Origin: Nitrospirota bacterium
GTDB lineage: Bacteria > JACPQY01
Reading direction: 5' to 3'
Assembly (NCBI GenBank): GCA_016190245.1
Contig: JACPQY010000036.1
Span: forward strand, 1-49,052
Length of the DNA stretch: 49,052 nt
Below are positions 4,860-41,304 of the stretch, in pieces (positions within the stretch are counted from its first letter, which is position 1; each line of letters begins with the position of its first letter). Below the pieces are notes generated by a model, which was given only the letters and a program-made list of their open reading frames with translations, ran no database searches and was not told the origin of the DNA. Both the position numbers and the translations under genes were made by a program.

Positions 4860-4875
4860 AGCAACTTTCGTGCCG
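4860..4875 (-). promoter_or_regulatory. Sigma-54 (-24/-12) promoter-like site
   Basis: The minus strand reads CGGCACGAAAGTTGCT. This matches the -24/-12 consensus TGGCACGNNNNTTGCW except for the first T. The predicted transcript would start near 4849, some 20 nt before the GTG at 4830. An 18-nt palindrome at 4985-5002 lies 110 bp further upstream, a typical enhancer distance. Confidence 0.65.
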
Positions 4876-4984
4876 TGTAGCGGTGGAGATCCTCGACAAC
4901 GCCTCGTAACTTATGACAAAAATAAACCTTCAACTACCCTCGACCTCAACAGGCTACAAGAAATGAGAAAAAGTGCGTCAAGTG

Positions 4985-5002
4985 TGTCAGGAGTTGCGAC
5001 AG
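4985..5002. promoter_or_regulatory. Putative enhancer site 1, TGTCA-N8-GACAG
   Basis: TGTCAGGAGTTGCGACAG, an interrupted palindrome (TGTC-N9-GACA). The same pattern occurs at 19510-19527 and 23398-23415, each about 100-111 bp upstream of a -24/-12 promoter-like sequence. It is inferred to be the binding site of a sigma-54 activator; no activator gene is in the window. Confidence 0.6.
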
Positions 5003-5009
5003 CACGTTG

Positions 5010-5096
5010 GAAAAGGGGACATTCCTATTTTCCATGAGCTTCTTCCACCCACCCGCCACCCCCGGGCAGCGCGGAAAATAGGAATGTCCCCTTTTC
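5010..5096. repeat. 24-bp perfect inverted repeat (GGGGACATTCC family)
   Basis: The arms are 5010-5033 and 5073-5096, perfectly complementary, with a 39-nt spacer; the core is GGGGACATTCCTATTTT. The element ends 2 nt before the stop codon of the 4,704-aa gene. I recall similar GGGGACATTCC palindromes around Y1/REP-associated transposase genes of deltaproteobacteria; no transposase is present here, so this would be a non-autonomous copy. On the minus strand it could also act as a transcription terminator, ending in CTTTTCC. Confidence 0.75.
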
Positions 5097-5098
5097 GC

Positions 5099-8000
5099 TC
5101 ACGGCGTCGGATCCGTCTCCTTGTTCAGGAAATACAGTCCGCCGTTGCTTGTCCCGATCATGAACTTCTGCTGGTTCGAGTTGTAGCCGACCTGACCGAT
5201 GGCCACCCCGGAACCGAAGTCGTACGTCAGGAAAAGGTTCGCCGCGCTCTCGTCGATGTAATACAACTTGCCGTTGGCGTTCCCCACCACCATCACGCCG
5301 GAGAGCATCAAACCGCCGTTCGTGAACGCCGCCGTCGAGCCGCCGGGGCGGAACGGATAGCCCGACTGCGGCGTTCCTGAACTGCTCAACACGTAGAAGT
5401 GGCCGTCGGAATCTCCGTATTCCACCTTCCACGTGGAGTACGTCACATACGGCGCCGCCGTGATCTTGTACAGGCAGTTGTCCAGGTCCCCCACGGTGTG
5501 ATTCGTCGTGTCCCGATACGGATAACCGCTCAGGTTCGGCAAGCCGACCGTCCCGTTGTCCACTCCGTGCATCCGACCTCCATCGTCGCCGCCGTACACC
5601 TTGTTGCTCATGAGGGTCAAGGTCGAGTTCACGTGTTGCACGGGCGTCGTGTTGTCCGAGTCCACGCTCCCCGATCCGGTCGTGTCTACGCGATAGAGAT
5701 GCGCCCCGCCCCCGCATGCCCCCGCTGCCTTCGAGCCCGCATACAGGTACACCGTCCCTGAAATGTTCCTCCACGAAGGCGCCGTCTGCACCCTCGAAGC
5801 GGCCCCTACATCCTTGGCCGGCGCGTCGGGCGTCGTGTCCGTGTCCGCGATCTGGACCCCGAAGATCCTGGCCCCGTCCGCCGCGTTCTCGCCGCCGAAA
5901 TAGAGGTTGTTCAAGTCGTAGATCAGGGGCGAGGTGATCTCGTCCACGTTCGCGTGCGAGTAGGCCGCCTGCCACGGGCATCCCGCCTTGGGGAGCTGGA
6001 GAGCCGTTCCGGTATCCACGAGAAGGAAGATCTTGGCCACGCTCCCGGGATCGGCCTTCCCCGTGGGCACGTAGAGGACGTGCAGGCTGTCCGTCGAGTC
6101 GCCGTCGTTGTTCATGTCGCAGGGTCCGAAGACCGTCTCGCTCTTCGTGTCCCAGATCGGCGTGCCCAGGATGTTGCCGTTCGCCTCGGCGATGTCGTAG
6201 GTGTAAAGGGGATTGCCCGCCGTGTCCCTTACATAGATCCTGTCCACCGTGCCGGCCCCGCCCGTGTCCGTGAACGCGACGTAGACGGCGTACTGGGCGT
6301 AGGTGGTCCAGTCGAACGCGAGCGTCGGGAAGCCGGCGATGGTTCCGGACGTGTCCGACGAGCAGCTCCACATCCAGTTCAGGATGGCCGTGTTGACTTC
6401 GCTTTCGTAGGCCGCGCCCGCGCCCGGACCGCTCGTGCCCACGCCCCGGTTTTCGGCGCAGCCGACCAGATCGCTCCCGCCGTTCGTGTCCTGGAGACGG
6501 ATGTTGTACTGAGAGCCGCCGACGGTGTCGAAGTAGCCGCCGCGGACGGAGACGGTCCCGCTCGCCCGCGCGATGGAGAGGAATCGGGCGCCGACGCCGG
6601 AATCGATGTTGGTGAACCTGATCCCGGCCAAGTCCGTGATGGTGGCGGTAGAGGAAACGTCCAGGCCCTGGAGGTCGCCGTAGCTGAACTGGAGTTTGGT
6701 GATGTTGACCGTGCCGGTGAGTGTCACATCAATCGTGCCCGAGCCGCCGTTGCGCGTGAGCGTGGGGCCGGATCCGCTCCCCGAGGAGTTGAAGGTTCCG
6801 TTGATCGTGAGCGACTTTCCTCCCGCGAGCTGGAACGCGCCGGTGGAGGCCAGTTCGAGCGTCCCGCCGCTCTCCACGGTGGCGTTCTGGAGGGCCACGA
6901 GAACGGCGCTCGTGTTGTTGACGCGCAGGGTGCCGCCGCTGCGGACGGTGAGCGTATCGTTCACGGTGAGCGTGTTGCTCGCCAGGATGTCGAGGGCGAA
7001 TCCGCCGTCAATGATGAGCTTCTTGCAGGCGCCCGCCGCCGCGTCCATCGTGATGGCCGCGCCCTGGACCACGACGTTCTCGCTGCCCGTCGGCACGCCG
7101 GATGGCGTCCAGTTGCCGCCGGTATTCCAGGCACCCGAACTGATCTTCTTGAAGTTCGTGGCCGAGGGATAGACCGTGTACGTCAGACCGGAGGTGGATC
7201 CGTTGTTGGTGATGCGGAAGCGATACTCCTGCCCGTCCGTGGCGGTCGCATCGGCCTGGACGCGGAACCACAGCTCGGTCGTGGTCGGATTGCCGGCGGC
7301 CGTGTAGGCCGTGTCGGTGTCGCTGTTCCAGTACTCGCCGTTCACCCAAGGGTTGCCGCCGCTCGTGCCCCTCTCGCCCGAGGTGACGCTCGCGCCGTTC
7401 GCCTTCGCGTAGGTCCCCGTCGGCGCCATCTTCCAATCGGTCGAGGTGTTGGTGATCGAGGTCCACGGACCGGGGCTGCCGTTGGGATCTTTCTGGTACT
7501 GGAGAACCCAGGTGTAGTTCGAGTTCGGATCGCTGTGGTCAATCCGCACGGCGACGACGTACTTGTTCCCCGGGGTGAAGTAGAACTCCCCGTTGTCGCC
7601 CTTCCACGTGAGCGAGGCGGCATCGTCCGCCACGTCGAAGGCGCCCTGGGCATTCCCGGCGCTCTGCACGGCCAGCTCGATCGTCACCGTGTACGTGTTG
7701 AGGACCTGCGGATTGGCCCCCGAGGCGTCCACCTCCACCGCGCGCAGGTAGTAGTTGCCGATCGCAGTGGGCTTGATGGTGAAGTCCTCCTCGTAGAGCG
7801 TGTCCGCGCTCTTGTTCTGCGCGGCCGGCTGGTCGTTGTCCTCGTGGTACACCCCGCCCGTCGGGCTGCCGGAAAGCGCAAGCGCGGTGACGGGCGAATC
7901 GCCGTCAAGGTGGCCGTCATTGTAGTCCGTGTCGTTCCACCCCCGGATGGTTGCGCTCGCGCCGGTGATCAGCGTCGGCGCGGGGAAGAGCGACGACGTG

Positions 8001-11000
8001 TCGAACTGGAGAGCGAGGTTGTGGCCGGTCCAACTCAGGTGCTTCGACTTGATGCCCACCCGCACGCGAACGAGGTCGTTGGGCGACACAATAGCCTGCG
8101 TGTTCTCCGGTTCGAGGGCGATCTCCGTCTTGTCCGCCCACCGGTAGGCCACCTGCTCCTTCACGCGCTGGGCGGCCTCCGGGTAGACGGTGTAGACGAA
8201 GGACCCGTTGGCGCCGTTGTCCGTGATCCGGAACCGGTAGCGATTGAGGGCGGACGACCCCTGCGGCTGGACGGAGTACCACAGCTCCGTGAACTCGCCC
8301 GCTCCAAGCGTGAACGAGGAGACAATGCCGTCCTCGCAGTAGACGCCGTTGACGCCCGTGCCTGTCCCGGTGCCCGTGACGAAGCTCCCCGTCGAGACCG
8401 AGGCGTTGTCCGCCCCGTACGCTCCATCCACCGCCCGCCAATCGGTCGAGGTGGTCGTGACGGCCGTCCAGGGTCCCGGCGATCCCGTCGGGTCCTTCTG
8501 GTACTCGAGGCGCCAACTGAAGGTGGACGGGCTCGCGCCGGTATTCTCCATCCTGACGGCCGCGATGTACGTCGTGCTCGTCGTGAACTCCTTGATCGTG
8601 TTCGAGGGACCGCTCCAGTCGGGCGAGGCCACGTTCTGCGCCCACTCGTAGGCGGCCAAGCTGACGTTCGGGACGGTGGCGGAGAAGGAAATGGCCTGGG
8701 TGTACGTGTCGAGCAGGCCGACGTAGGCTCCCGTGTTGTCCACCTCGACCACACGCAGGTAGTACGTGCCGGAGGCCCCGATCTCCACGGTGAAGTCCTC
8801 TTCGTAGAGGATGTCCAGGCTCTTGTTCTGCGAACTCACCACGTTCGATTCGTGGTAGCGGCCGGCGGTGGGCGTGCCGGAGAGGAGGGTCCCCGAGAGC
8901 GCGTCGTTGTTGAGATGGTCGGCGTCGTCCCAATACTTGATCGGCGTGGAGGAGGTCGTGATCAGGTAGGTGGAGGGCGCGCCGTTCGCATTGGCGAAGC
9001 TCGAGACCGTGTCGTATTGCAGCGCAAGATAGTGCCCGTTCCAGGGCGAGTTGTTCGACTTGATCCCCGTGCGGAGATGGAGCTGCTGGTTGACGGCGGC
9101 GGTGTAGGCGTTGTTCTCGAGCGCAAGTTGGTTCTCGGCCCCGTCCGCCCAGCGGAAGGAGACCTGCTCGTGGGTGGTGTCCTTCGCCTGCGCCAGGATC
9201 GTGTACGAGATTCCGGCGGTGGAGCCGGAGTTCGTGATCCTGAAGCTGTACGCCTTGCCGGAAGCCGCCGACTGAGGCTGGATCTCGTAGCGCAACTCCG
9301 TCTGATTGCCCGCGCCCAAGGAATACGTGCCCTGCGCTCCCGTCTCGCTGTAGCGGCCGTTCGCGGCCGTCCCCGCGCCGGCGTTGGTGACGAAGTTACC
9401 GGTGGTGATGGCAGTTCCGTCCTGGACGGTGTTGACCACGGCCTTCCAGTCCACGGATCCGGTCGTGAGGTCCGTCCACGGTCCCGGCGTTCCCGTCGTC
9501 CGCTGATATTGGAGACGCCAGTCGTAGTTGTTGGGGACGGCGCCCGTATTCGAGACTCGAACGGCCAGCGTGTAGGTCGTGCCCGGCGTGATCTCGATGA
9601 CCGAGTCCGCAGTCCCGAACCCCGTGCCGGCGGTCAACTCGCCTGCCCCCCAGTTGAACGAGTCCTGGCTGGTCGCCGGATTGTTTCCGGTGAGCGAGAT
9701 CGTCTGAAGGTAATTGTTCAAGACTTTGAGGAAAACCCCCGAAGAATCGGTCTCCACCACCCTCAGATAGTACGTGCCCGTGGAGGTGACCTTGACGGTG
9801 AAATCCTCTTCGTAGAGCGTGTCCGCGTTGGCCGTTTGGCCCGGCGGGACACCGTCCTCGTGATATTTCCCGGCCGTAGGACTGGAGGACAGGATCGAGC
9901 CCGTCACTGCGTCGCCTTTCAGATGGTCCGTGTCGTTCCAATACTGGATGTTGCTCGATGAGGTGGTGACGAGCGTGGGGGCGGCGAAGTTGATGTCCGT
10001 GTCGTACTGGAGGCTGAGGTAGTGCGTGCTCCACGTGAGGTGCTTGCCCTTGAGGCCGGTTCGGAGGTGGACGGTATCGTTCACGTTGGCGTTGAACGAG
10101 GAGTTCTCCGTGGCCAGCGCCGCCTCGGCGGCATCGGCCCAACGGAAAGAGACCTGCTGGGTGACGAGTTGGGCGGCCTCGGGGGACTGGTTGTACGCGA
10201 AGGGACCGGTCGCTCCGTTGTCCGTGAGGCGGAACTTGTAGCGGTTGAGGGCCGCGCTGCTCAACGGCTGAATGGAGAACCAGAGCTCCGAGTACTCGTT
10301 CGAGTTGAGCGTGAAGGACGACACGATCCCGTCCTCGGAATACATGCCGCTCACGCCCGTCCCCGTTTCCGAGCCGGTCGAGAAGCTCCCGGTCGCCACG
10401 TTGGTGTTGTCAAGCCCATAGACGCCGTCCACGGCGCGCCAGTCGTTCGAGCTGGTCGTGATGTTGGTCCACGCGCCCGGGCTCCCCGTCGGATCCTTTT
10501 GATATTGGAGCCGCCAGTTGAGCGTCGCCGGCGAACCGCCCGTGTTCTTGGCCCGCACGGCCAGGATGTACGTGGTCGAGGTGGCGAACGAGAGCATCGT
10601 ATTGGCCGTCTGCCAGGCCGGGCTCGCCTGGTTGGGGGACCAGTTGTAGCCGTTCTGCCCCACCGAGGGGACCGTGGCCGTCACGGCGATCACCGGGCTC
10701 GAATACGTGTCGAGCACCGCCGGCGATCCGCCGTTGTAATCCACCGCGCGCAGATAGTAGGTGCCCGTGGCCGTGATCGTGACGGTGAAATCCTCCTCGT
10801 AGAGCGTGTCGAGCGTCTTGCTCTGGGTCACGGATTGATTCTCGACCTCGTGGTAAAGCCCCGCCGTCGGACTGCCCGTCAGGATCGTGGCCGCCACGTT
10901 CGTGCCTTCCACCCTGTCGGAGTCGTCCCACATCTGGACATTGGCGGTGGCCGTGGTCACGTTGACGGGCGACGGGAAGGCGCTGTTCGTGTCGTACTGG

Positions 11001-14000
11001 AGGGAGAGCTTGTGGTTGTTCCAGGCGCCGTTGTTCGAGCGGATGCCGGCCCGCAGGTGGAGGAGCTGGCCGACGGCCGAGTTGTAGGAGGTGTTCTGCG
11101 CCTCGAGGGCGATCTCGCTTTCGTCCGCCCACCGCCAGGAGACCTGCTCGTGCGTCGTGTCCTGCGCGATGGCATAGACGGAGTACGTGAAGGCCGAGGT
11201 CGAACCCGAATTAGTGAGGCGGAAGCGGTAGGCCTTGCCGGCGGCGGCGCTCTGCGGCTGGAGCTCGTAGCGGAACTCCGTCTGGCTCGTCGCCGAGAGC
11301 GAGTATCCGCCGTGCGCGCCGGTCTCGGAGTAGCGGCCGTTGATGAGCGAGCCCGAGCCCGCGTTGGTGACGAAGTTGGCCGTGGCGATGGCGTTGCCGT
11401 CCTGCCCGGTTCCGCCGGCGACGGCCTTCCAGTCGGCCGAGGTCGTCGTCACGTCGGTCCAGGAACCCGGCGTCCCGTTCGTCTTCTGGTACTGGAGGCG
11501 CCAGTCGAAACCGGCGGGGACGGCCGAGCCGTTCGACATGCGCACGGCTAGCGTGTAGGTCGAGCTCGGGGCGTATTCGAGCGAAGCGTCGGCCGTGCCG
11601 AAGCCGCTGCTGCCCGTGAGCTCGCCCGCACCCCAGTTGAAGGAATTCTGGGTCGCCATCGGGTTGTTGCCCGTGATCGCGATCGCCTGCGTGTAGATCT
11701 TGAGGACCTTGAGGAAACTACCGAAGGCGTCCACCTCCACGACGCGAAGGTAGTACGTGCCGGTGGTGAGGACGGTCACCGTGAAGTCCTCCTCGTACAG
11801 CGTGTCCGCGGTCTTGTTCTGAGAGGGCGGGACGCTGTCCTCGTGGTACACGCCGGCCGTGGGCGAACCGCCGAGCATGAGCGGCGTCACCCCCGCCCCT
11901 TCCGTGTGGTCGCCGTCGTCCCACATCCGGATGTTCGAGGAACTCGTGGTGACCAGCGTCGGCGCGGTGAAGTTGATGTCGGTGTCGTACTGCAGGGCGA
12001 GGTAGTGGGTGGTCCACGGACCATTGTTGGGGCGCAGGCCCGCGCGCAGGTGCAGGGCGTCATTCACCGTCGCATCAACCGACGCGTTTTCGGCTCCCAA
12101 GGCGGCCTCGCCGGGGTCGAGCCAGCGGAAGGACACCTGCTCGGTGGCCGTCTGCCGCCCGATCGGATAGACCGTGAAGGTGAAGGAGCCGGCGTTCCCG
12201 CTGTTGGTGAGCCTGAACTGGTACTTGTTGTTCGTGGCGGAGACCGTGGGTTGGAGGGCGTACCAGTGCTCCGTGTAGCGCATCGCGGCGAGCACCTGGA
12301 GGAAGCTCCCCGTCTCCGAGTACGTGCCGTCCACAGCCGTCACGCCGGGACCCGGCGGGCTGCCGCTGTTGGTCTTGAAGCCCGAGGTGGCGGTGATGGC
12401 CTGGCCGTCCACGCTGTACGTCGCGTCCACGGCCTTCCAGTCGGCAGATGACGTGGTCACGTTCGTCCAGGAGCCCGGCGTTCCGTTGATCTTCTGATAC
12501 TGGAGCTGCCAGGTGACGGAGGCTGAGGTGCCGCCGACCGTCGTCGAGGGCTCGGGACTGATGTATCTTCGAGCCTTGATGTAGTCGAACTCGGCGCAGG
12601 CGTTGTCCGCGCCAATCCCGATGATGGGACTCCAGGCCGTGCTGTAGGTCGTGTCGAGCCGCAGGTTGTTGTCAATGTACAGCTTGTGGTTGGTCCCCTG
12701 GATGATAAGGCCCATCTTGTACCACGTGTCCGGGTTGATGACCTGCGGGTTCTGCGAGATCGTGGTGCTCGTCCAGGCGGAAATATCCCATTCCTCCAGG
12801 CGCCAGTAGTCCGCGCCGACGCGCGCGCCGTCCACGCTCAGATCTCCCGTGGCCCCGTCACGGAAATTGAGCAGGAAGGTGTTCTCCCAGTTCCCGCACG
12901 CGCTGCTGAGCGGGCGGGTCAGCATCTCGACGTACCGGTCCGCCGGAACGCTCACGGCGGTCTGCCGGAGGTAGAAATGCTGGTTGCCGCTGTCGTCCAC
13001 GCGGGCATCGTCCGTCCCATTGATCGTCCACGTTCCGGCCGCCCCACCGGTGTCCCATTGGCTCAACGTGCCGGAGAAGTCATCATAGAAAGCATAGACG
13101 GCCGAACGGTTCGCGGGGGGGGTGGTCGAGCCCTGATCGTTGTCGTAATAGAGGTAGTATTCCTTGTCGTCCAGGCCGGCGGCGATCGCGACCTTGGTCT
13201 TGAACCAGATCTCCGTGCTCGTGCTGTTCCAGCTCGTTTCGGTGACGCGGTCCAGTTCGGTGTTGGTGGCGCCGTTGTAGTACACGATGCGGACGTCGTT
13301 GCCCCCGGGCGTCGAGCGGCCCTGGCCGACGATGTCCTGGTGGTTGATCGTGATCTTGACGGAATAATCGGCAGGCAGAGTGGACGCCGCGGTGTTGACG
13401 ACCTGGATCTGCTCGCGGTAGTCCCAGCCGCTGTTCCACCACGGGGCGTTGCCCAGACCGGAGCGGTTCTCCGCCTGGACCGCGAGGAGATAGATGTTGC
13501 CGGGCGTCATCTCCAACTGCGTGTCCGTGGTCTGGAACACCGGGCTCGCGGCGTCCGGCGCCCAGGCGTAGTAGTTCTGGCGCAGCGTGGGGTTCACGAC
13601 GAGGACCGTGATGAGTTGGCTGTACGTGTCGAGCGTGCCCACGAGCGCGCCGGCGGCGTCGAGGCGGACGACGCGCAGGTAGTACGTGCCGACGGTGTCC
13701 ACCGTGAGAGCGAAATCCGCTTCGTAGAGCACGTCCGCGCTCATGGCGGGTTCCGTCGACACCAACACGTTGGTCTCGTGGAAACGGCCCATCGTGGGGG
13801 TCCCGGAGAGGAGCGAGCCCGTGACCGTACTCTCGTCCGCGTGGTCGCCGTCGTCCCACATGTACACGGTGCTCGAGCTGGGCGTGGCCACGACGGCGGA
13901 GGCGAAGGTGCTGACCGTGTCGTACTGGACCCCAAGTCGCTGGCCGCTCCAGGTTCCGTTGTTCGACCGGACGCCCACGCGGAGGTGGAAGAGTTGGTTC

Positions 14001-17000: not shown

Positions 17001-19213
17001 AAGTAGCTGTTCGAGCCGGGGGCGGCCACGAGCGTGCTTCGGCTCGAGCCGCTCCCGCGGGTGATCCCGGGCGAGGTGAACGACCCGTTCGAGAAATGGG
17101 TGTAGTAGTTCGTCGCGGTTGCAGACCACCTCGTGATGAGCGTCGCCGTCCCGTTCGTGGGGTAGGCGCGGAAGGTGTTCCAGTCCGCCTGGACGAGAAG
17201 GTTCTGCTCGTTGATGGTCGAGATCCGCAGGCCGCCGTTGAAGTTGTCCCCCGTGTCGAAGCTGGCCGCCTGACGCGTGGAGTCGTAACGGGCCTGCGCC
17301 GAGTTCGTGCCGTCAATGTCCACGTGCTTGCCGTTTTCGTAGCCCGAGGTCGCGACGGTCGCGTTGCGGTTGTAGGCCTCGACGGACCGGATCTGCGGCG
17401 TGCCGGCCGTCCGGACGATCCGGATGTACCGCGCCACCGACAGCCCGCTGGAGGCCAGGTCCAGGTTGACGCTGCTGCCGGTGCTCGATCCGATGAGCGT
17501 CCACGGGCCCAACTCCCAGGCGCTGCCGTACACATCGAAGTTGTTCCCGCCGCCGCTGCTCGTCCTGACTCTCAGGTCGTTGCTGCTGCCGTTGGTGATC
17601 TCCTCGCCCTCCCCCATGTCCAGGATGAGCTGACCTCCCGCGGAGATCGAGGCCGACTGGTTGGCCGTTTCGGTGCCGACCGCCTTGTAGTCCTCCGTCA
17701 CGGCGGTGGAAGACACCACCGAGTTGGCCCAATCATCGCCCTGCGACACCGCGGTGTTCGACGAGAAGTCGTCGTACCAGAGGTAAACGTCCGAGGGGTT
17801 GCTGGATGGCGCGAGGGCCGCGGTGTTGCCGTAGTACACATAGTAGTTGTTGTCCGATCCGCTCGCCGCGATGGAGGCCTGCGTGGGGAAATAGACCCTC
17901 GTATTGCCGGAGTTCCAGGCGGTCGAGTTGGTCCGAGGCACCTCGACGTAGGTGGAACCGTTCCAGTACACGATGCGGACGTCGTCGCCGTCCGCCTGGG
18001 CCTTGCCGCCCGTCACCCACGTCGCGTGGGTGAGATCCGCGCGCACCGAGTAGCCTGCGGGGAGGGCCTGGCTCCCCACATTGTTGGTGATCGTGATTCT
18101 CTGGCGGTAGCCGTACGCGCCCGACTTCCATGCTTCTTCAAGCTGAACCACGGGCTCGGGGCTGATGTAGTAGCGGAACTTCACGTCGTCGAACTGGGCG
18201 TGCGAATCCTCGTTGCCCAGACCCATCACCGTGTTCCAGGTCGTCTCCGCGCCGGTCATCGTGTACGTGAACTTCTGCGCCCCGTCCACCCAGAACGTGA
18301 TCACGTTGCCGTTGAGGCGGACCTTGCAGGAGTACCAGATCCCCCGGTCAATGGTCTGCGAGTAGCTGGTGTAGGTGGTCTCCGCCGTGGAGGACGTCCA
18401 CTGCTCCACGCGCCATTCGTCCGCCCCCTCGCGAGCGCCGACGACGATGCGCTGCTGCGTGTCGGCCGGGTTCTCGCGCAGGGTCATGAAGAAGTTCCAG
18501 ATCGAGCCGTCGAACGGCGAGTAGCCCTTCCATTCCATCTCGAACGCGGAGGGCGTGGGAAGGTAGCTCTGCTGGAGGAAGTAGTGGGTGTTGGAGCTGT
18601 CCGCGCTGTCGAGGACGCCCGAGCTGATGGACCAACTTCCCGTCCCCGGCGTGCCCCACTTCGAGAGCGTGCCGGAGAAATCGTCGTAGATCAGGTACAC
18701 GTTGTTCTGATCGGCCGGGGGGCCGCCCGCGGCGGGGTTGTTATAGTAGAGGTAGTAGTCGCGCGACTCGCGGCCCGATTTGAGCCGGTTCTGGGCGCGG
18801 AAGCGAATCTCCGTGGCCGACGTGTTCCAGGAGGTGGCCGCGAGGCGATCCAGTTCCACGTTCACCTTGCGCGTGCGACTGTAGTACACGATCCGGATGT
18901 CGTTGCCGTTCGAGAGCGACTGGCCGGCGGAGACGAGCGAGGCGTGGTCGAGGTTGAACAGGAGCGTGTAGCCCTGGGGCATGTCCAGGTTCGAGTCGTT
19001 GCGGATGTGGATGATCTGGCGGTTGCTGAAGTTCCCGTCCCACCACGCGACCGTCTCAGCTTCAGCGCGACCGAAGAGGACGTACAGGCCATAGCCTACG
19101 CCCAGGAGAGCGAAGAGGCCCACCTGCACGTACCGCGGGGCATGGCGGAATGCCTCCGGAACGGACCGGAGGCGGCGTGCGATCGACCGCAGGGCCGCTA
19201 GCACGCGCTCCAT
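5099..19213 (-). CDS. 4,704-aa modular surface protein (DUF2341, tandem repeats, beta-propeller-like end)
   Basis: ATG at 19213 follows a strong CCGGAGG Shine-Dalgarno. Order seen: basic N-terminus, hydrophobic segment 29-47 and a possible AEA|E cleavage near 52; DUF2341 plus concanavalin-like domain (about 57-355); a second DUF2341 (about 365) followed by a discoidin-like part and another lectin-like part; two copies of a domain resembling the N-terminal domain of BNR neuraminidases (about 852-1150); seven alternating A-B modules (about 1372-4025); beta-helix-like strands beginning with a GNWTPSGVP motif (about 4030-4270); and a C-terminal region of short PQQ/FG-GAP-like strands to residue 4704. 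A third DUF2341-lectin block interrupts module B2. No enzyme active site or C-terminal anchor was seen. It is inferred to be an extracellular adhesin or matrix protein. The next gene on this strand (4830) has its own promoter. Confidence 0.9.
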   Translation of the reverse strand: MERVLAALRSIARRLRSVPEAFRHAPRYVQVGLFALLGVGYGLYVLFGRAEAETVAWWDGNFSNRQIIHIRNDSNLDMPQGYTLLFNLDHASLVSAGQSLSNGNDIRIVYYSRTRKVNVELDRLAATSWNTSATEIRFRAQNRLKSGRESRDYYLYYNNPAAGGPPADQNNVYLIYDDFSGTLSKWGTPGTGSWSISSGVLDSADSSNTHYFLQQSYLPTPSAFEMEWKGYSPFDGSIWNFFMTLRENPADTQQRIVVGAREGADEWRVEQWTSSTAETTYTSYSQTIDRGIWYSCKVRLNGNVITFWVDGAQKFTYTMTGAETTWNTVMGLGNEDSHAQFDDVKFRYYISPEPVVQLEEAWKSGAYGYRQRITITNNVGSQALPAGYSVRADLTHATWVTGGKAQADGDDVRIVYWNGSTYVEVPRTNSTAWNSGNTRVYFPTQASIAASGSDNNYYVYYGNTAALAPSSNPSDVYLWYDDFSSNTAVSQGDDWANSVVSSTAVTEDYKAVGTETANQSASISAGGQLILDMGEGEEITNGSSNDLRVRTSSGGGNNFDVYGSAWELGPWTLIGSSTGSSVNLDLASSGLSVARYIRIVRTAGTPQIRSVEAYNRNATVATSGYENGKHVDIDGTNSAQARYDSTRQAASFDTGDNFNGGLRISTINEQNLLVQADWNTFRAYPTNGTATLITRWSATATNYYTHFSNGSFTSPGITRGSGSSRSTLVAAPGSNSYFPCCTVGTGNGGSGDGINVQSSTATSSGGQTGNDTIRYGIYQNGANSVHRFWVNNDTDAAATLQNLAYADGGYASTGQPAFQANQQWGWFDNIVVRRYFYPEPSFALSGESASGDFKVTGIHTSTNPVSAGSSDVEILRLDIEGGTSQTLTQIVVSSLNTSDSDVSGVSAYYTGTSTTFSTSNPFGTTGQAFTAGSVTFTGSRSLPNNQLVHVFIVYNVAGGATPGNTLDAQITAGNVTISAVNYPSTVAISPSGARTISAPQSLSTITVTNIDTSTVKPSASNAQILRLDFAVTGTGAPLTIQQIKVTSTNIADTDVSGVSAYYTGTSSTFSTTTPFGATNQPFAAGKVTFNGGQDMGNGSAPGTFYAFIVYTLSSTAVIGNTVDAKIVTNDITVEGSTYPASDQNPAGNRTIAVPTGSVTSLPPITSLVNSDPSLQPWQNFNNTDGGDPDLWVDNLEADDGLYAGGQMASVGILFDPQMTSVEFTFDLDDQVSGIAGNDINTLTFRAEMYLTGANNGSAPQTDTADWTKISDSAVDLYNYTTATWEEIGDPFLTNTPSGWQNTAEAGVWDESGDTNPERPLRRFKGSGFTNDYLDSNGRLKMRVRVEGQINATGDEINMIFDYAQIDVSYGANVEQVAFRWADDAEASTQDENKSYSTVIGTQLHLRGSVRSRYKPFGSHRLGLQYDTDSAFTSGDGFNPVIMTAATAEIRYWDDADHLEGDPVSGTKLLTGSNADGIYHEDDIPPSQSKNQDLIYEEDVAVVGQAAGTYYARLVKVDGFGALLGALDYYANAITITVSSTSVQQEGYAWAVNVASPSFGSPNTPLEFTPGTNYILATRPANVGTSAASYRWQIEFQRINGVPGPWVAVNTSSPEWIAVDGVYAANDTSIATGSFVTGPGTGTSAAGRYSEVGIVRSPTLSFNLAAGNYTELWYSIQPQSDAAGNNYRFRLTNNQSTGGFAYTQLGEAQQTTREEVSYRLADESDAGLSNENTAATVAKNQLFHLRVGVRSNNGTWSGQRLGVQYDTVSTFASAVVATPSSSTVYMWDDGDHADESTVTGSLLSGTPTMGRFHETNVLVSTEPAMSADVLYEADFALTVDTVGTYYLRVVRLDAAGALVGTLDTYSQLITVLVVNPTLRQNYYAWAPDAASPVFQTTDTQLEMTPGNIYLLAVQAENRSGLGNAPWWNSGWDYREQIQVVNTAASTLPADYSVKITINHQDIVGQGRSTPGGNDVRIVYYNGATNTELDRVTETSWNSTSTEIWFKTKVAIAAGLDDKEYYLYYDNDQGSTTPPANRSAVYAFYDDFSGTLSQWDTGGAAGTWTINGTDDARVDDSGNQHFYLRQTAVSVPADRYVEMLTRPLSSACGNWENTFLLNFRDGATGDLSVDGARVGADYWRLEEWDISAWTSTTISQNPQVINPDTWYKMGLIIQGTNHKLYIDNNLRLDTTYSTAWSPIIGIGADNACAEFDYIKARRYISPEPSTTVGGTSASVTWQLQYQKINGTPGSWTNVTTSSADWKAVDATYSVDGQAITATSGFKTNSGSPPGPGVTAVDGTYSETGSFLQVLAAMRYTEHWYALQPTVSATNNKYQFRLTNSGNAGSFTFTVYPIGRQTATEQVSFRWLDPGEAALGAENASVDATVNDALHLRAGLRPNNGPWTTHYLALQYDTDINFTAPTLVTTSSSNIRMWDDGDHTEGAGVTPLMLGGSPTAGVYHEDSVPPSQNKTADTLYEEDFTVTVLTTGTYYLRVVEVDAFGSFLKVLKIYTQAIAITGNNPMATQNSFNWGAGELTGSSGFGTADASLEYAPSSTYTLAVRMSNGSAVPAGFDWRLQYQKTNGTPGSWTDVTTTSADWKAVAGGTGQDGNAIATANFVTNAGSGSLINGRYSETGAHGGYSLSATSQTEFRYELQPQSAAAGKAYRFRLTNSGSTSAFTYSVYAIAQDTTHEQVSWRWADESEIALEAQNTSYNSAVGQLLHLRAGIRSNNGAWNNHKLSLQYDTNSAFPSPVNVTTATANVQMWDDSDRVEGTNVAATILTGSPTAGLYHEVENQSVTQSKTLDTLYEEDFTVTITATGTYYLRAVDYNGGSPAVLDTYSSPVIAVTATVPSVGQNGYNWSPNQASPAWQTANTMLSFATSTTYILAVRAKNTGGSPATLNWRLQYQKDPTGSPGAWTNITTSSNDWRAVDGVYGLDNTNVATGSFSTGSETGTGVSGMYSEDGIVSSFTLNSNEYSELWFSIQPLSSAALNRYKFRLTDNGATGPFAYNQSPEAAQLVTQQVSFRWADAAEAALATENSSFNANVNDTVHLRTGLKGKHLTWSTHYLSLQYDTDINFAAPTLVTTSSSNIQYWNDTDHLKGDAVTGSILSSSPTAGKYHEDGVPPGQTANADTLYEEDFTVKVTSTGTYYLRVVETDSSGVFLKVLNNYLQTISLTGNNPATSQDSFNWGAGELTAGTGFGTADSVIEITPGTTYTLAVRVSNTGAVPNNYDWRLQYQRTTGTPGPWTDLTTGSVDWKAVVNTVQDGTAITTGNFVTNAGAGTAANGRYSETGAQGTYSLGAGNQTELRYEIQPQSAASGKAYSFRITNSGSTAGISYTILAQAKDTTHEQVSFRWADGAENQLALENNAYTAAVNQQLHLRTGIKSNNSPWNGHYLALQYDTVSSFANANGAPSTYLITTSSTPIKYWDDADHLNNDALSGTLLSGTPTAGRYHESNVVSSQNKSLDILYEEDFTVEIGASGTYYLRVVEVDNTGAYVGLLDTYTQAISFSATVPNVSLAAYEWAQNVASPDWSGPSNTIKEFTTSTTYIAAVRMENTGASPSTFSWRLEYQKDPTGSPGPWTAVTTTSTDWRAVDGAYGADNASVSTGSFVTGTGTGTGVNGVYCEDGIVSSFTLGAGEFTELWYSVQPQGSSALNRYRFRITDNGANGSFVYTVYPEAAQRVKEQVAYRWADKTEIALEPENTQAIVSPNDLVRVRVGIKSKHLSWTGHNLALQFDTSSLFPAPTLITGASATIRGWNDTDYNDGHLDGDSPVTALALSGSPTGGVYHEDNDQPAAQNKSADTLYEEDFTIKPTAIGNYYLRAVEVDASGANPQVLNTYTVTIELAVQSAGNAQGAFDVADDAASLTWKGDNGEFYFTPGNKYVVAVRIDHSDPNSNYTWVLQYQKDPNGSPGPWTSITNTSTDWKMAPTGTYAKANGASVTSGERGTSGGNPWVNGEYWNSDTDTAYTAAGNPTTTELWFRVQADATATDGQEYRFRITNNGSTSGLTYTVYPSATNFKKISSGAWNTGGNWTPSGVPTGSENVVVQGAAITMDAAAGACKKLIIDGGFALDILASNTLTVNDTLTVRSGGTLRVNNTSAVLVALQNATVESGGTLELASTGAFQLAGGKSLTINGTFNSSGSGSGPTLTRNGGSGTIDVTLTGTVNITKLQFSYGDLQGLDVSSTATITDLAGIRFTNIDSGVGARFLSIARASGTVSVRGGYFDTVGGSQYNIRLQDTNGGSDLVGCAENRGVGTSGPGAGAAYESEVNTAILNWMWSCSSDTSGTIAGFPTLAFDWTTYAQYAVYVAFTDTGGAGTVDRIYVRDTAGNPLYTYDIAEANGNILGTPIWDTKSETVFGPCDMNNDGDSTDSLHVLYVPTGKADPGSVAKIFLLVDTGTALQLPKAGCPWQAAYSHANVDEITSPLIYDLNNLYFGGENAADGARIFGVQIADTDTTPDAPAKDVGAASRVQTAPSWRNISGTVYLYAGSKAAGACGGGAHLYRVDTTGSGSVDSDNTTPVQHVNSTLTLMSNKVYGGDDGGRMHGVDNGTVGLPNLSGYPYRDTTNHTVGDLDNCLYKITAAPYVTYSTWKVEYGDSDGHFYVLSSSGTPQSGYPFRPGGSTAAFTNGGLMLSGVMVVGNANGKLYYIDESAANLFLTYDFGSGVAIGQVGYNSNQQKFMIGTSNGGLYFLNKETDPTP
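7140..15100 (-). repeat. Seven-fold A-B module array in the giant gene, about 1 kb per unit
   Basis: Module A begins with EQVSFRWAD-like residues and carries LHLR, LQYDT, YHE, LYEEDF and GTYYLRVVE. Module B carries Y.W....ASP, RLQYQK..GTPG.W, YSE.G and RFRLTNSG. A modules start near 15100, 14080, 12145, 11150, 10165, 9170 and 8160. Units 3 and 5 share SFNWGAGELT.. and GTPG.W; units 4 and 6 share DPTGSPG.W, DWRAVDG and EDGIVSSFTL. This implies duplication of two-unit blocks. The wider gap between units 2 and 3 is the inserted DUF2341-lectin block (about 13455-12540). Confidence 0.85.
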
Positions 19214-19395
19214 GCATCCTCCGGAGATCGTGCCGAGCGCGCCTCCGGCTGGGACCCGCCCACCGGATCCTTGCCCACATCTGCCTTCGAGTAGCCGTAG
19301 CCCATAAATCCTCTACTCGTCCTGCCACTCCAAGAGCGCGAGTAGGCCCTTGGGATAGGGTATGTTACCCTACCGATTACTGCGCCAGACTTACC

Positions 19396-19410
19396 GCAAC
19401 ACTATTGCCA
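19396..19410 (-). promoter_or_regulatory. Sigma-54 promoter-like site of the 4,704-aa gene
   Basis: The minus strand reads TGGCAATAGTGTTGC: -24 TGGCA, -12 TTGC, correct five-base spacer. The match is weaker than at the other two sites (A instead of C after TGGCA), but it has the same upstream palindrome at the same distance. The leader to the ATG at 19213 would be about 170 nt. Confidence 0.5.
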
Positions 19411-19509
19411 CTTAGGCAATTGTACCGTATTGGAACAACATAACAACCGCCACAGGCAATCCAGATGGGGCACTAATCCGAGAAAAAACCATAAGATTCC
19501 AGCCCAGTC

Positions 19510-19527
19510 TGTCAAAGAATGCGACAG
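19510..19527. promoter_or_regulatory. Putative enhancer site 2, TGTCA-N8-GACAG
   Basis: TGTCAAAGAATGCGACAG. It shares TGCGACAG with site 1 and lies 100 bp upstream of the -24 element at 19410. The centre-to-GG distance is 110 bp against 120 and 122 at the other sites, so it stays on nearly the same DNA face. Confidence 0.55.
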
Positions 19528-19598
19528 TTCCCATATCCCAAACCTCGCAGTCCCCACTTCCCTTAATCCGTTAATCCGTCGCCAAGCGTCCGTGTCCC

Positions 19599-19747
19599 GT
19601 AGGGACGCATTCCTATGCGTCCGAGAAGACGGACCGATCGGAATCGGTCCCTACAGCGTTGAATGCAGGCCATCCTGGCCTGCTTCCTTTCGCAGTACCA
19701 GGCCGTCCTGGGCCAGGTACGAAGAAGGCACACCCATCGGGTGCGCC
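19599..19747. repeat. Cluster of five short hairpins
   Basis: Hairpin 1 is GGACGCAT-TCCT-ATGCGTCC (19603-19622). Hairpin 2 is GGACCGAT-CGGA-ATCGGTCC (19631-19650). Both are enclosed by an outer GTAGGGAC/GTCCCTAC pair (19599-19606 and 19647-19654). Hairpin 3 is GCAGGCCA-TCC-TGGCCTGC (19665-19683). Hairpin 4 pairs GTACCAGGCC with GGCCAGGTAC with one mismatch (19695-19720). Hairpin 5 is GGCACACCC-ATC-GGGTGCGCC with one mismatch (19727-19747). They look like dispersed extragenic palindromes. Confidence 0.7.
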
Positions 19748-19823
19748 CCCTTAGCTCGGGAATCCGGCATTGCCGACGGATTAAGGACTTCAGTACATCC
19801 TCGCAAAAGTGTTCGATCGTCTT

Positions 19824-19889
19824 GAGATCGCCCTCGCGATGACGTAGAGGGGCGTCATTGCGATCCGCCGCAGGCGGAGAAGCAATCTC
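19824..19889. repeat. Dispersed palindromic element, copy 1 (CATTGCGA...AGCAATCTC)
   Basis: Right half CGTCATTGCGATCC...AGCAATCTC, with a shortened left half GAGATCGCCCTCGCGATGACG. Related copies are at 25902-25972 and 37683-37763. It carries an inner CCGCCGCAGGCGG palindrome shared with copy 3 but not copy 2. It ends 28 nt from the stop codon of the BY-kinase gene. Confidence 0.75.
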
Positions 19890-19917
19890 GAGATGGTCAC
19901 GGACTTCTAAATGGCGC

Positions 19918-22191
19918 TCACGCCTGAGCCGGCGGTTCGGGTGGGGTCGGGTGCTCGTGATGACCCTTGCGTTTCCAACGGCGCGCCAATCGTGCGGTCA
20001 CGGAATCCCACGCCTTTCGAACCGACGACCGGCCGCTGAAATCCGTCTCGGGGGCATACCGCCGGTAGTGATACCGGTAGGAGTAGCGCGAGTAGAAGTA
20101 GCGCCCCTGGTAGTCCACGTCGTTCAGGACCACGCCGACGATCTTGCCCTGCGAGCCTTTCAGATGGTCGAGCGTACGCTGGGTGATGTCTCTTGCGGTG
20201 CGTCCGATCCGATAGACCAGGACGATCCCGTCCACGTGGGGCGCCAGCACACTGGCGTCCGCCACCGGGAGCGTGGGCGGCGAGTCCACGATGATCACGT
20301 CGAATGCCTCACGCAGCTCGTTGAGGAAGCCGCGCTGCATCAGCATGTCGAGGGTGGTGGGTGGATGAACGGACGTCGGTCCGGCGTTGATGATGTGGAA
20401 GTTGTCGAGTCCCGGGGACGCCTCGAGCGATTCCAGATCCAGGCCGTGGTACATGAAGTCGGCCACGGTCTTGACCGTCGTGCGCCAGTCGATGCCTTCG
20501 GACGCGATGTTCGTCAGGCCCACGTCGTTCTCCACCGGGAAATTCTTCTGCACCGTCGGCCTGCGCGTGTTGGCCTCCACCAACACGGTACGCAGGTGCC
20601 CCTGCGCGAAGGAGAGCGCCAGATTCGCGCTGACGAACGACTTGCCTTCCTGCGGGGTGGCGCTCGTCACGAGAATGACCTTGAGGTTCTCTTTCCGGCG
20701 CAGGAGCATGCGCAGGCTCTGAAAATTCTCGCTCACGGGGGCCTTGGGGAAGAAGTGCACGACCATCGTCGAGGCATACGGGGATGACACGTTGGCCGGG
20801 ACGCCGCCCCTCAGGTGCTTTTCCTGCTCGAGGGTCTCGCGCAATTCGAAGTGAGGGATCACGCTGAGCACGGAGAGGTGGAGAAAGCTTTCGACGTCCG
20901 CGACCGTCTCCATCGAGTAGTCAAAGGATTCCCTCAGAAACGCCAGACCTATGCCGACCATCAAGCCCACGAGGCCGAGGGAGGCGACGGGGAGCAAGGA
21001 GATCTTGTTCATGGGCTGCGTCGGGACGAGGGCGTATTCCGCAATCCGCACGTTGGTGCTCTGGATCGCGCCGCCGAGTTGGGCACGCTGGAAGGCCTCG
21101 TCCACGCTGTCCATCATCGAGCGGTAGCGGTCCGACTTGCGCTGGAGACGCCCCAACTCGATCTCCGCCTCGAGGTATCGGCTGTTCTGGGTCTCGGTCT
21201 CCTGCCGCGTCTCTTCGATCCGCCGCCCCTCCTCCTCGATCTCCCGGCGCGCCTGGTCCAGGTACTGCCGCATCCGGGCGACCAGCCCCCCGATCCGCTC
21301 GTTGACCGCAAGCACCTCCGGGTGGGAGGCCGTGAAGAGGAGTTGCTTGTCCCGTTTCTCGAAAAGCGCCAACACCAGCCCCTCGCGGTGCGGCTCGAAG
21401 CCCGACGGGGCCTCGCGCCACTCGAAGGACGGAACCGAATCTCCCTCCAAGGCGCCGGGATCGTCCAGAAGGGCCCGCAACTCGTTCAGGCGCGCAAGCC
21501 GGCGCTCCACCGCCTCCCCCTGCGCCTCGAGATCCGACAAGCGGTTGAGGTTCATGGACACCGAGGCCTCCACGCCCAGCATCCCGTGCTCGCGCCGGAA
21601 CCGGCTCACCTCCTCCTCCGCGGCGGACGCCAACTCCTCCAGGCGAGCCTGGTACTTGCTGGTCATGGCCTTGGTTTCGGTGTTCCGCGAAAAGGCCTGT
21701 TCGATCCGATAGGCCTTGAACTCGGAAGCAACCAAGTTCGCCATGTCCCGCGCCTCGTGCGGGTTGGTGGACGTGGCAAAGATGTCCACGATGCGCGTGC
21801 TGCTGCGGTGGCGGGCCTCAACCCGGGACTGCAGGTCCTTTACCCGCCGCACCATCTCCTCGTTCTCGAAAAGACGGTCAACAGAGACATCCTCCGGAAC
21901 GACCCCGAGCTTCTTCCCGACCGCCACGATCACCGGCAGGCTGGTGATCACCTCCAGCTCGGTGAGAAGGGTGGAGGGCGGCTCCCAGTACGTGGAGTAG
22001 CCCGCGGCCGACATCGCCGTCTGCTCGAACTCGACCGTGGCACGGGCCTTGTAGACCGGCGTCTGCCGGCGGATGAAGGTCATCCCGACCAGGACGGAAG
22101 CCACCAGGGTCAGAACGACGATCCACTTGCGCTTGCGCACCACGCGCAGAACGTCCGGCAACGAGGCGGTCTGTGAACGATCCGCAGGCAC
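19918..22191 (-). CDS. Wzc-like polysaccharide co-polymerase / BY-kinase
   Basis: 757 aa, GTG start. It would control chain length and export of an exopolysaccharide at the inner membrane. Seen: an N-terminal Wzz-type segment with the first membrane helix (about 23-42, WIVVLTLVASVLVGMTF), a long periplasmic coiled coil (about 150-385), a second helix (about 398-417), and a cytoplasmic P-loop domain with Walker A SATPQEGKS (near 510), Walker A' VLVEANTRRP (near 540), Walker B FDVIIVDSPP (near 635) and a tyrosine-rich cluster YFYSRYSYRYHYRRY (about 695-712), the usual autophosphorylation tail. Odd: the Walker A' aspartates (usually D.D) are E and N, so kinase activity may be altered. It lies 62 bp downstream of the HD-GYP gene, probably one operon. 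No glycosyltransferases are nearby. Confidence 0.88.
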   Translation of the reverse strand: MPADRSQTASLPDVLRVVRKRKWIVVLTLVASVLVGMTFIRRQTPVYKARATVEFEQTAMSAAGYSTYWEPPSTLLTELEVITSLPVIVAVGKKLGVVPEDVSVDRLFENEEMVRRVKDLQSRVEARHRSSTRIVDIFATSTNPHEARDMANLVASEFKAYRIEQAFSRNTETKAMTSKYQARLEELASAAEEEVSRFRREHGMLGVEASVSMNLNRLSDLEAQGEAVERRLARLNELRALLDDPGALEGDSVPSFEWREAPSGFEPHREGLVLALFEKRDKQLLFTASHPEVLAVNERIGGLVARMRQYLDQARREIEEEGRRIEETRQETETQNSRYLEAEIELGRLQRKSDRYRSMMDSVDEAFQRAQLGGAIQSTNVRIAEYALVPTQPMNKISLLPVASLGLVGLMVGIGLAFLRESFDYSMETVADVESFLHLSVLSVIPHFELRETLEQEKHLRGGVPANVSSPYASTMVVHFFPKAPVSENFQSLRMLLRRKENLKVILVTSATPQEGKSFVSANLALSFAQGHLRTVLVEANTRRPTVQKNFPVENDVGLTNIASEGIDWRTTVKTVADFMYHGLDLESLEASPGLDNFHIINAGPTSVHPPTTLDMLMQRGFLNELREAFDVIIVDSPPTLPVADASVLAPHVDGIVLVYRIGRTARDITQRTLDHLKGSQGKIVGVVLNDVDYQGRYFYSRYSYRYHYRRYAPETDFSGRSSVRKAWDSVTARLARRWKRKGHHEHPTPPEPPAQA

Positions 22192-22253
22192 GGGTCAGCG
22201 CCTTTCCGCTACGCTGGGTCTCTCCCGGCCGGCCCCACCGGTCCGGAAAGCCA

Positions 22254-23255
22254 TCACTGGGCGGGGGCGTTGACGCTCGAATCCAGAAAAGAGGACGAAA
22301 GGTCCAGCCGCGCGGTGATGTGCACCATGGGAAGGTGCCGCAGATCCAGAACGCGGGGCTGCTTGAGCGAGATGCCCTCGCTCACCAACTCCACCACCGG
22401 CCGCAGCGGCGCCTCGGGGTGCGTGCGAACCACCCGCGCCACACGCCCCGTCGAGAGACGCACGCCGGTGCCCGGCGGGTAGGGCGTCACTCGCCTCAGG
22501 GCTGCAATCCATAGGTCCTTCGGAAATATCCCCCGTCCTGCGTGCAGAAGCTGCTGCAGAGCGTCCGCGAACGAACGGCCCGACCGATGGGGACGATCAT
22601 GGGTGACACTCTCAAGGGTATCACAAAAGCCCACGACGCACGCGAGATGATCGATGCCCGACCCCTTCAGGCCCTGGGGATATCCCGTGCCATCGAGCCT
22701 CTCCTGCTCCTGGTGCACGATCCGCGAAACAACCCCGTTCACCTTCGACGCGCGAAGCAACTCCCGGCCCAACTCGGGGTGCGCGCGGATAATTCTCTTC
22801 TCCGAATCCGATAAGGGGCGATTCGCCACCAAAACGTCCTTGGGTACCTCGAACATCCCGATGTCATGAACCAGAGCGCCCGCGGTCAACTCGATCCGCA
22901 CCTCCTCCTCCAACTCCATCTCCGGCGCCACGCATCCGGCCAGGATCGCCACGTTGAGCGAATGCTCGACAAGAAACTCCTCCCTGTGGTCGGACGCCGC
23001 CCGCTTGAGCGAGCGTTCCAGCCACATCTCGGGTAGGGTGCCGACCTCACGCAACAGGTCGGAAGCCAAGTCCAGAAGCTCGTTCTCTCCCACCCCCCGC
23101 CGGCTCACGATTCCCGCGCAGACCCTGAAAAGCCGATCCTTCATGCGGCCATAGGCGAGGTCCACACCCTCGCGCCGCTTCCGGAGGATCTCCGGCGCCA
23201 TGGCCTGCTGGTCCACGGCCACCAGCCTGTCAGGGATTCGTGCATTCATAGTCAT
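22254..23255 (-). CDS. HD-GYP domain protein, predicted c-di-GMP phosphodiesterase
   Basis: 333 aa. HD-GYP proteins hydrolyse c-di-GMP to pGpG or GMP. Seen: a helical N-terminus without a recognisable receiver domain, HD motif H130-D131 (HDIGMF), the DGTGYP signature (188-193) and GLKGSGI. The C-terminal 70 residues (VRLSTGRVARVV...PRVLDL) resemble the tail of HD-GYP proteins. Odd: before DGTGYP, where most family members have HHER, this protein has HQEQER (181-186), so a metal-binding histidine is replaced. The start is uncertain: ATG at 23255 or 23249 sits only 6-12 nt after the predicted sigma-54 transcription start, and an internal start (for example 23207) is possible. It is first in an apparent operon with the BY-kinase gene. 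Confidence 0.85.
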   Translation of the reverse strand: MTMNARIPDRLVAVDQQAMAPEILRKRREGVDLAYGRMKDRLFRVCAGIVSRRGVGENELLDLASDLLREVGTLPEMWLERSLKRAASDHREEFLVEHSLNVAILAGCVAPEMELEEEVRIELTAGALVHDIGMFEVPKDVLVANRPLSDSEKRIIRAHPELGRELLRASKVNGVVSRIVHQEQERLDGTGYPQGLKGSGIDHLACVVGFCDTLESVTHDRPHRSGRSFADALQQLLHAGRGIFPKDLWIAALRRVTPYPPGTGVRLSTGRVARVVRTHPEAPLRPVVELVSEGISLKQPRVLDLRHLPMVHITARLDLSSSFLDSSVNAPAQ

Positions 23256-23270
23256 CGTGCCGCATTCATA

Positions 23271-23287
23271 AGCAAGAGGGGTGCCAG
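23271..23287 (-). promoter_or_regulatory. Sigma-54 (-24/-12) promoter of the HD-GYP/BY-kinase operon
   Basis: The minus strand reads CTGGCACCCCTCTTGCT: perfect TGGCAC, five-base spacer, perfect TTGCT. The transcript is predicted to start near 23261, just before the HD-GYP start codon. It is the best of the three -24/-12 sites, and rpoN itself is in the window (39126-40565). Confidence 0.75.
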
Positions 23288-23397
23288 AAACAACTCATTT
23301 GTTGATCATATAACTACTTGCGATAACATAGCAACCCAGACAATATTTATGTGTACAGCAATTCACAAGATGAGACAAATGAAAACATTCACATACA

Positions 23398-23415
23398 TGT
23401 CAGAGAAATTGACAG
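23398..23415. promoter_or_regulatory. Putative enhancer site 3, TGTCA-N8-GACAG
   Basis: TGTCAGAGAAATTGACAG, 111 bp upstream of the -24 element of the HD-GYP operon. It is also 46 bp upstream of the -35 box of the divergent chemoreceptor-like gene, so the bound protein could affect both. Confidence 0.6.
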
Positions 23416-40565: not shown

Positions 40566-40569
40566 CGGG

Positions 40570-41304
40570 TCAGAACCGGAAGCTTGGCCCCAGATAAAAC
40601 TCGCGGGCCTTGGCACTGGAGGCAATCACCTGGGGAGGACCCTCCTCCAGGATGCTCCCCTCGTGGATCAGGTATGCCCGATCGCACACATCGAGCGTGT
40701 CCCGCACGTTGTGGTCCGAGAGGATGATGCCGATGCTCTTGGAAGCCATGTAGCGGATGATCTGCTGGATCTCCCCCACCGTGATAGGATCGATGCCGGA
40801 GAACGGTTCGTCAAGTAGAAAGAAGAGCGGCTCGAGAACGAAGGCGCGGGCAATCTCGACGCGCCGGCGCTCGCCGCCGGAGAGGACCAAGGCCTTCTTC
40901 TCGGCCAGGTGGCCCACACGAAACTCATCCATCACCGCCGTCAAGCGTTTTCGTTTCTCCCTCCCGCTGAGGGGAAGGATGTCCAGACTGGCAAGGATGT
41001 TCTCCTGTACGGACATTTTCCGGAAGACGGACGGCTCCTGCGGCAGGTAGAGCAGGCCGGCCTGGGCGCGTTTGTGCACGGGGTAGGCGGTGATCTGCGT
41101 GCCGTCGAGCCAGACGGCCCCGCTGTCCGGACGGACGAGCCCCGTGATCATGTGGAACGTCGTCGTCTTCCCGGCCCCGTTGGGGCCCAGCAGCCCGACC
41201 ACCTCGCCCGGCCCGACGTGGACGTTCACCCCGTCCACCACCGTGCGGCCGCGGTAGCTCTTGCGCAGCAACTCCGTGCGCAGCCTCTTGCTACTCGCGG
41301 ACAT
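40570..41304 (-). CDS. lptB: LPS export ABC transporter ATPase
   Basis: 244 aa. LptB powers lipopolysaccharide extraction by the LptB2FG complex at the inner membrane. Seen: Walker A GPNGAGKTTTF, signature LSGGERRRVEIARAF, Walker B FFLLDEPFSGIDP, switch His in ILSDHNVRDTL and the LptB-type tail EGSILEEGPP. ATG 41304 lies 14 nt inside the end of the lptC/A-like gene, implying coupling. Confidence 0.97.
   Translation of the reverse strand: MSASSKRLRTELLRKSYRGRTVVDGVNVHVGPGEVVGLLGPNGAGKTTTFHMITGLVRPDSGAVWLDGTQITAYPVHKRAQAGLLYLPQEPSVFRKMSVQENILASLDILPLSGREKRKRLTAVMDEFRVGHLAEKKALVLSGGERRRVEIARAFVLEPLFFLLDEPFSGIDPITVGEIQQIIRYMASKSIGIILSDHNVRDTLDVCDRAYLIHEGSILEEGPPQVIASSAKAREFYLGPSFRF

Follow-up and report, generated by a model that had tools for sequence, protein, structure and literature searches.

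Genes and promoters in the window

Contig JACPQY010000036.1 of a Nitrospirota bacterium (GTDB lineage JACPQY01; assembly GCA_016190245.1), analyzed here from position 1 to 49,052 (the window), carries on its minus strand three transcription units that lie behind predicted sigma-54 promoters of the -24/-12 type, each preceded by a copy of the same palindrome (Table 1). Two units encode giant surface proteins, and the third encodes an HD-GYP-like protein and, after it, a BY-kinase. An earlier, sequence-only reading had proposed that this arrangement represents a sigma-54 regulon. The three palindromes lie where that reading placed them, with zero mismatches, and its three minus-strand promoters are genuine matches: GG-N10-GC is found in all of them, and against the consensus that we tested (TGGCAC-N5-TTGCW), promoter 3 is a complete match and promoters 1 and 2 depart slightly. 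The distances from the centre of the palindrome to the GG, given earlier as 120, 110 and 122, are 119, 109 and 121 by our measurement, i.e., each within 1 bp. The palindrome had been written as TGTCA-N8-GACAG; a better form is CTGTC-N9-GACAG, a palindrome of 17 to 19 bp with an odd centre, which reads CTGTCGCAACTCCTGACAC, CTGTCGCATTCTTTGACAG and CTGTCAATTTCTCTGACAT at the three window sites. Below, the gap between palindrome and promoter is the number of bases that separate the last base of GACA from the initial G of the -24 element.

Table 1. Positions of the features discussed. Positions refer to the window unless a contig is named; G000 is the genome carrying the window (3.29 Mb), G001 is the genome compared with it, and C-numbers are contig labels.
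Feature	Position	Strand	Remark
Upstream activating site 1, palindromic (putative)	4985..5002	-	CTGTCGCAACTCCTGACA(C), gap 110 bp to -24 GG
Sigma-54 -24/-12 promoter 1 (predicted)	4875-4860	-	CGGCACGAAAGTTGCT
Repeat-rich giant surface protein, truncated by contig end	3..4842	-	downstream of promoter 1
Upstream activating site 2, palindromic (putative)	19510..19527	-	CTGTCGCATTCTTTGACA(G), 10/10 palindrome, gap 100 bp
Sigma-54 -24/-12 promoter 2 (predicted)	19410-19395	-	TGGCAATAGTGTTGCG
4704-aa giant surface protein, DUF2341 domain	5099..19213	-	downstream of promoter 2
Upstream activating site 3, palindromic (putative)	23398..23415	-	CTGTCAATTTCTCTGACA(T), gap 112 bp
Sigma-54 -24/-12 promoter 3 (predicted)	23286-23271	-	TGGCACCCCTCTTGCT
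HD-GYP-like protein (Pfam HD_5)	22254..23255	-	first gene, promoter 3 unit
BY-kinase	19918..22191	-	second gene, promoter 3 unit
RpoN (sigma-54)	39126..40625	-	lptB-rpoN-hpf-rapZ cluster, in window
HD-GYP-like/BY-kinase pairs, G000	C10:198202, C86:13709, C22:31593, C22:34969
HD-GYP-like/BY-kinase pairs, G001	C5:148253, C21:21769, C21:7677, C40:19313
CAACG-N7-CGTTG with -24/-12 module	G000 C10 ~98.1 kb; G001 C26 ~67.4 kb

By eye, the giant gene behind site 1 begins with a GTG (4842 or 4830) shortly after promoter 1, and a signal-peptide-like stretch with AxA at its end comes next. The gene of the 4704-aa protein starts with ATG at 19213, with a GGAGG ribosome-binding site before it and a leader of ~170 nt. 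In the third unit, the profile match makes the HD-GYP family membership of the first protein clear; at the catalytic site, it has HDIGM (HDxGM) where HDxGK is canonical, and EQERLDGTGYP in place of HHExxDGxGYP, such that E-Q-E-R replaces H-H-E-R in the alignment with structure 4mcw. Judging from these residues, the protein could be a relative that is altered or no longer catalytic. Because the catalytic-site residues are replaced, hydrolysis of cyclic di-GMP is doubtful and this role should not be assumed, so that the link to cyclic di-GMP drawn in the sequence-only reading is unsupported. The second protein is, by its sequence features, a polysaccharide tyrosine autokinase: it scores 124.9 bits against TIGR01007 (cut-off 108.05) and combines a Wzz/GNVR N-terminal part, an autokinase ATPase domain with EGKS, and a C-terminal tyrosine cluster (Y-rich tail), although its Walker A' motif reads VEANTRRP.

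The window also contains rpoN, which would supply the sigma factor and, as far as seen, is outside the regulon; the sequence-only reading had noticed neither this gene nor the candidate regulon members elsewhere in the genome. The HD-GYP unit and a methyl-accepting-chemotaxis-like gene (23661-25829, plus strand) point away from each other, with site 3 in the intergenic stretch that separates them. A perfect 24-bp inverted repeat, GAAAAGGGGACATTCCTATTTTCC, at 5010-5033 and 5073-5096, lies between site 1 and the end of the 4704-aa gene and looks like an element of the REP (repetitive extragenic palindromic) type; a REP-associated-transposase-like gene is found at C22 36103-37050, adjoining one of the HD-GYP/BY-kinase pairs of this genome.

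Specificity and conservation of the palindrome

The exact ten-base palindrome occurs 4 times in the 3.29 Mb of the genome, versus 2 times in the reversed control, and ~6 copies are expected at uniform base composition; alone, it is not over-represented. The genome-wide pattern search found a sigma-54 promoter downstream of 4/4 exact copies. The joint pattern TGTC-N9-GACA, 88-118 bp, GGC-N8-TGC was detected 3 times genome-wide, always in the window; the reversed control gave 0. For the GGCA-N6-TTGC version of the joint pattern, the chance expectation is 0.11 (P(>=3) ~2e-4), an estimate on the cautious side, since the loci that supplied the promoter density had been selected for their sigma-54 features. 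When the pattern was relaxed to TGT-N11-ACA with GGCA-N6-TTGC, this genome yielded the three sites of the window and just one more, on contig C86. Unlike the frequency of the palindrome itself, its pairing with promoters is non-random. The sequence-only reading had held that scatter of the palindrome over random positions would speak against a regulon; checked across the genome, the positions favour one.

The comparison across genera involved a single other genome of the phylum, G001, which belongs to the same family but to another genus and is 97% complete. The fourth exact palindrome of the window genome (10/10), on contig C61, precedes TGGCACGGCGATTGCT by 72 bp, and the gene that follows encodes a 176-aa protein; the orthologue of this protein in G001 (62% identity) is preceded by CTGTCGTAACTGCGGACAG and then, at gap 73, by TGGCACCTGAATTGCT (TGGCAC-N5-TTGCT). 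The gene has the same neighbours in both genomes, nusA (divergent) and an SRPBCC-like gene (convergent), and an additional upstream half-site, GGTGACAG, is likewise shared; much of the aligned spacer has diverged, except for a block adjoining the -24 element. In the 176-aa protein, C-x2-C and H-x3-H are invariant, and a match to the MEDS sensory domain is below the threshold; these residues suggest that the protein could bind zinc. A second G001 site, CTGTCGCTGAAAAAGACAA, lies 101 bp upstream of TGGCACATCCGTTGCTC, ahead of a 1707-aa RCC1-repeat surface protein. The joining of contig C61 to the start of the window contig through the truncated giant gene was considered and rejected, as there is no similarity or overlap.

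What the sequences show directly is that the sites are present, specific across the genome, and conserved. The core of the sequence-only reading, i.e., sigma-54 promoters with a shared palindrome before genes for surface proteins, a BY-kinase and an HD-GYP protein, is accordingly strengthened both by specificity within the genome and by persistence of the palindrome-promoter pairs in a second genus. Since a related genus has a like arrangement, one activator probably switches these genes on jointly.

The pairing of an HD-GYP-like gene with a BY-kinase gene is a repeatedly duplicated module in the phylum, and promoter types differ among the copies (Table 1). In both genomes, this HD-GYP-like family has the K of HDxGK replaced, and E/A-[QH]-E-R instead of the H-H-E-R of active enzymes. 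Matches to the HD-GYP family elsewhere were distant, with identities of 26-43%. The C86 unit has TGTAAGCAAATTAGACA at gap 110 from a sigma-54 promoter. The three other G000 pairs listed (C10 and two on C22) have, by eye, sigma-70-like promoters; therefore, sigma-54 control belongs to particular copies of the pair. In G001, a 1760-aa RCC1-repeat surface protein is encoded immediately after a REC-HD-GYP gene with the canonical HHHERYDGSGYP (C41:9543-15777); the -24/-12-like TGGCCTGCATCTTGCTT precedes this unit, and no clear CTGTC-N9-GACAG is seen there.

A proposed activator and its alternatives

Taken together, the pattern is best read as a new regulon of cell-exterior genes in an uncharacterised phylum, controlled by sigma-54 and an enhancer-binding protein (EBP). 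We consider it very probable, from the sequence evidence, that a single NtrC-type EBP uses CTGTC-N9-GACAG as its upstream activating site and so co-controls these genes. A dimer of this EBP would bind the 17-19-bp palindrome ~70-112 bp upstream of the -24/-12 promoter; once activated, the protein would assemble its AAA+ ring and, with the intervening DNA looped out, contact the sigma-54 polymerase and open the promoter. Activation by looping is proposed because of the architecture of the sites and the established knowledge of sigma-54 transcription. The predicted targets in the window are the two giant surface proteins and the HD-GYP-like/BY-kinase unit; elsewhere in the same genome, they would include the small conserved protein on C61 and probably the second HD-GYP/BY-kinase unit on C86, and in G001, the orthologue of the small protein and the giant RCC1-repeat surface protein. 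Three points are inferences: binding by an EBP, activation by this protein, and, as the outcome, a coordinated remodelling of the cell exterior.

The window genome encodes 29 matches to Sigma54_activat, at least 21 of them strong and most of these EBPs with GAFTGA; 14 EBPs have a reciprocal best hit in G001, and one EBP has a G001 orthologue that adjoins a TGTTG-N7-CAACA site. Other palindromes, too, accompany sigma-54 promoters of the two genomes. For example, an exact NtrC-type TGCACC-N5-GGTGCA lies on C29 of the window genome at gap 90, and both genomes have CAACG-N7-CGTTG (gaps 70 and 90) in the space that separates a ferredoxin-like gene from an EBP gene, the adjacent EBPs being reciprocal best hits. 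Because such promoters share the geometry, a 17-bp palindrome 70-112 bp upstream appears to be the usual look of an enhancer site here, and CTGTC-N9-GACAG is, by its sequence, one specificity among several. Further palindromes were noted in G001, where other perfect 17-bp palindromes occur at sigma-54 promoters beside an EBP gene (TGTTGGAAAATTCAACA, C23 ~35 kb) and before a lipase-like gene (TGTATATTATATATACA, C33 ~58.3 kb), and in the window genome at C78:8283-8423, where the 18-bp palindrome ATGTGACATTCGTCACAT lies 109 bp upstream of the sigma-54 promoter TGGCACGACAGTTGCT.

Several observations weigh against the proposed regulon. The window genome is 85% complete, the gene of site 1 is truncated, the C86 palindrome has one mismatch, and promoter 3 would give a leader of only ~5 nt to the annotated ATG. 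In the ~600 kb of loci examined, no intergenic copy of CTGTC-N9-GACAG was found next to an EBP gene; thus, an EBP gene with the same site, for which the sequence-only reading had suggested looking, did not emerge among the EBP genes examined, and a comparison of the DNA-binding ends of the EBPs (recognition helices) was not decisive in picking the binder. The gaps spread from 72 to 112 bp, so that phasing is not strict. Gaps of 100, 101, 110, 110 and 112 fit steps of roughly one turn, whereas the conserved 72/73-bp sites before the 176-aa gene differ from the 100-bp class by ~28 bp, or 2.7 turns. The helical phasing claimed earlier thus holds for the 100-112-bp class and does not extend to the 72/73-bp sites.

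If the arrangement resulted solely from chance, i.e., from a palindrome and degenerate -24/-12 matches picked by eye out of a 49-kb window, the lack of enrichment of the palindrome alone would be expected, and searches allowing one mismatch within the window indeed give numbers near the chance level. Conversely, the joint occurrence is expected ~0.1 times per genome and was observed 3 times, and copies outside the original sample are present on C61 and in G001, one of these being a phylogenetic footprint at an orthologous gene. Conservation between genera already disfavours chance, which we regard as extremely improbable. A less remote, although still unlikely, explanation is that a different protein, a repressor or an architectural one, binds the palindrome, and the activating EBP binds elsewhere or acts from solution. 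The variable gap (72-112 bp) and the lack of any EBP linked to the palindrome are compatible with such a binder; the two-fold geometry over 17 bp and the placement at 70-112 bp, which match those of other sigma-54 promoters here, including the NtrC-type one, and the sigma-54 promoter that follows 4/4 exact copies argue for an enhancer site.

If an EBP does read the palindrome, the implication is a regulatory code for a lineage without known biology: one palindrome would predict which giant surface proteins are switched on together and which of the several HD-GYP/BY-kinase pairs join the regulon, and the small conserved 176-aa protein is named as a likely core member. It is conceivable, although we advance this only tentatively, that a previously undescribed EBP in this deeply branching phylum reads CTGTC-N9-GACAG and runs an exosortase-independent surface-matrix programme, with the 176-aa putative zinc-binding protein (weakly MEDS-like) as a core member and the altered HD-GYP protein with its BY-kinase as the output module.

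Comparison with known systems

The sequence-only reading had likened the three promoters to the sigma-54 control of exosortase-linked surface genes. In the PrsK/PrsR regulon of PEP-CTERM proteins in Proteobacteria, the sigma-54 site is accompanied, at a distance of ~63 nt, by a 17-nt motif that ends in TTTACA (Haft et al. 2006, PMC1569441). The logic is similar, with a sigma-54 site and a 17-nt upstream motif before genes for large surface proteins, and links to polysaccharide genes; on these grounds, the window could be a PrsK/PrsR-type PEP-CTERM/exosortase regulon or a direct offshoot of one. Motif and spacing differ, however, as the sites described here end in GACA and have gaps of 72-112. 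Exosortase (PF09721) is found in 0/2 genomes (85% and 97% complete), the best scores against TIGR02915 (PrsR) are 430 and 426 bits, below the cut-off of 502.6, and the BY-kinase, at 98.8, is far below the cut-off for the XrtA-associated kinase (230.65). The comparison with the exosortase system is therefore not borne out, and a PrsK/PrsR origin is very hard to credit.

Closer in sequence is the consensus of GlrR/QseF (QseEF) in enterobacteria, TGTC-N10-GACA (PMC8745638). That system is likewise dependent on sigma-54 and an NtrC-type EBP, with an identical TGTC/GACA half-site; it differs in the spacer (10, versus 9 here) and in the targets, which are glmY and rpoE rather than surface proteins, a BY-kinase and an HD-GYP protein. 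It should be noted that likeness of half-sites by itself does not show kinship. NtrC sites are similar in being 17-bp two-fold palindromes tens to ~100 bp upstream of -24/-12 promoters, but have the half-site TGCACC instead of TGTC, and the targets described here are not nitrogen genes. Sigma-54 control of cell-exterior genes is already well known (PMC4641369); for example, DVU0110 and DVUA0057 of Desulfovibrio vulgaris are sigma-54 EBPs for exopolysaccharide and biofilm genes, with upstream activating sequences ~100 bp or more upstream (PMC4641369). Compared by these features alone, the present system resembles them in the EBP control proposed for cell-exterior genes and in the distance of the upstream site, and would widen the established association of sigma-54 with the cell exterior to include a system that lacks exosortase.

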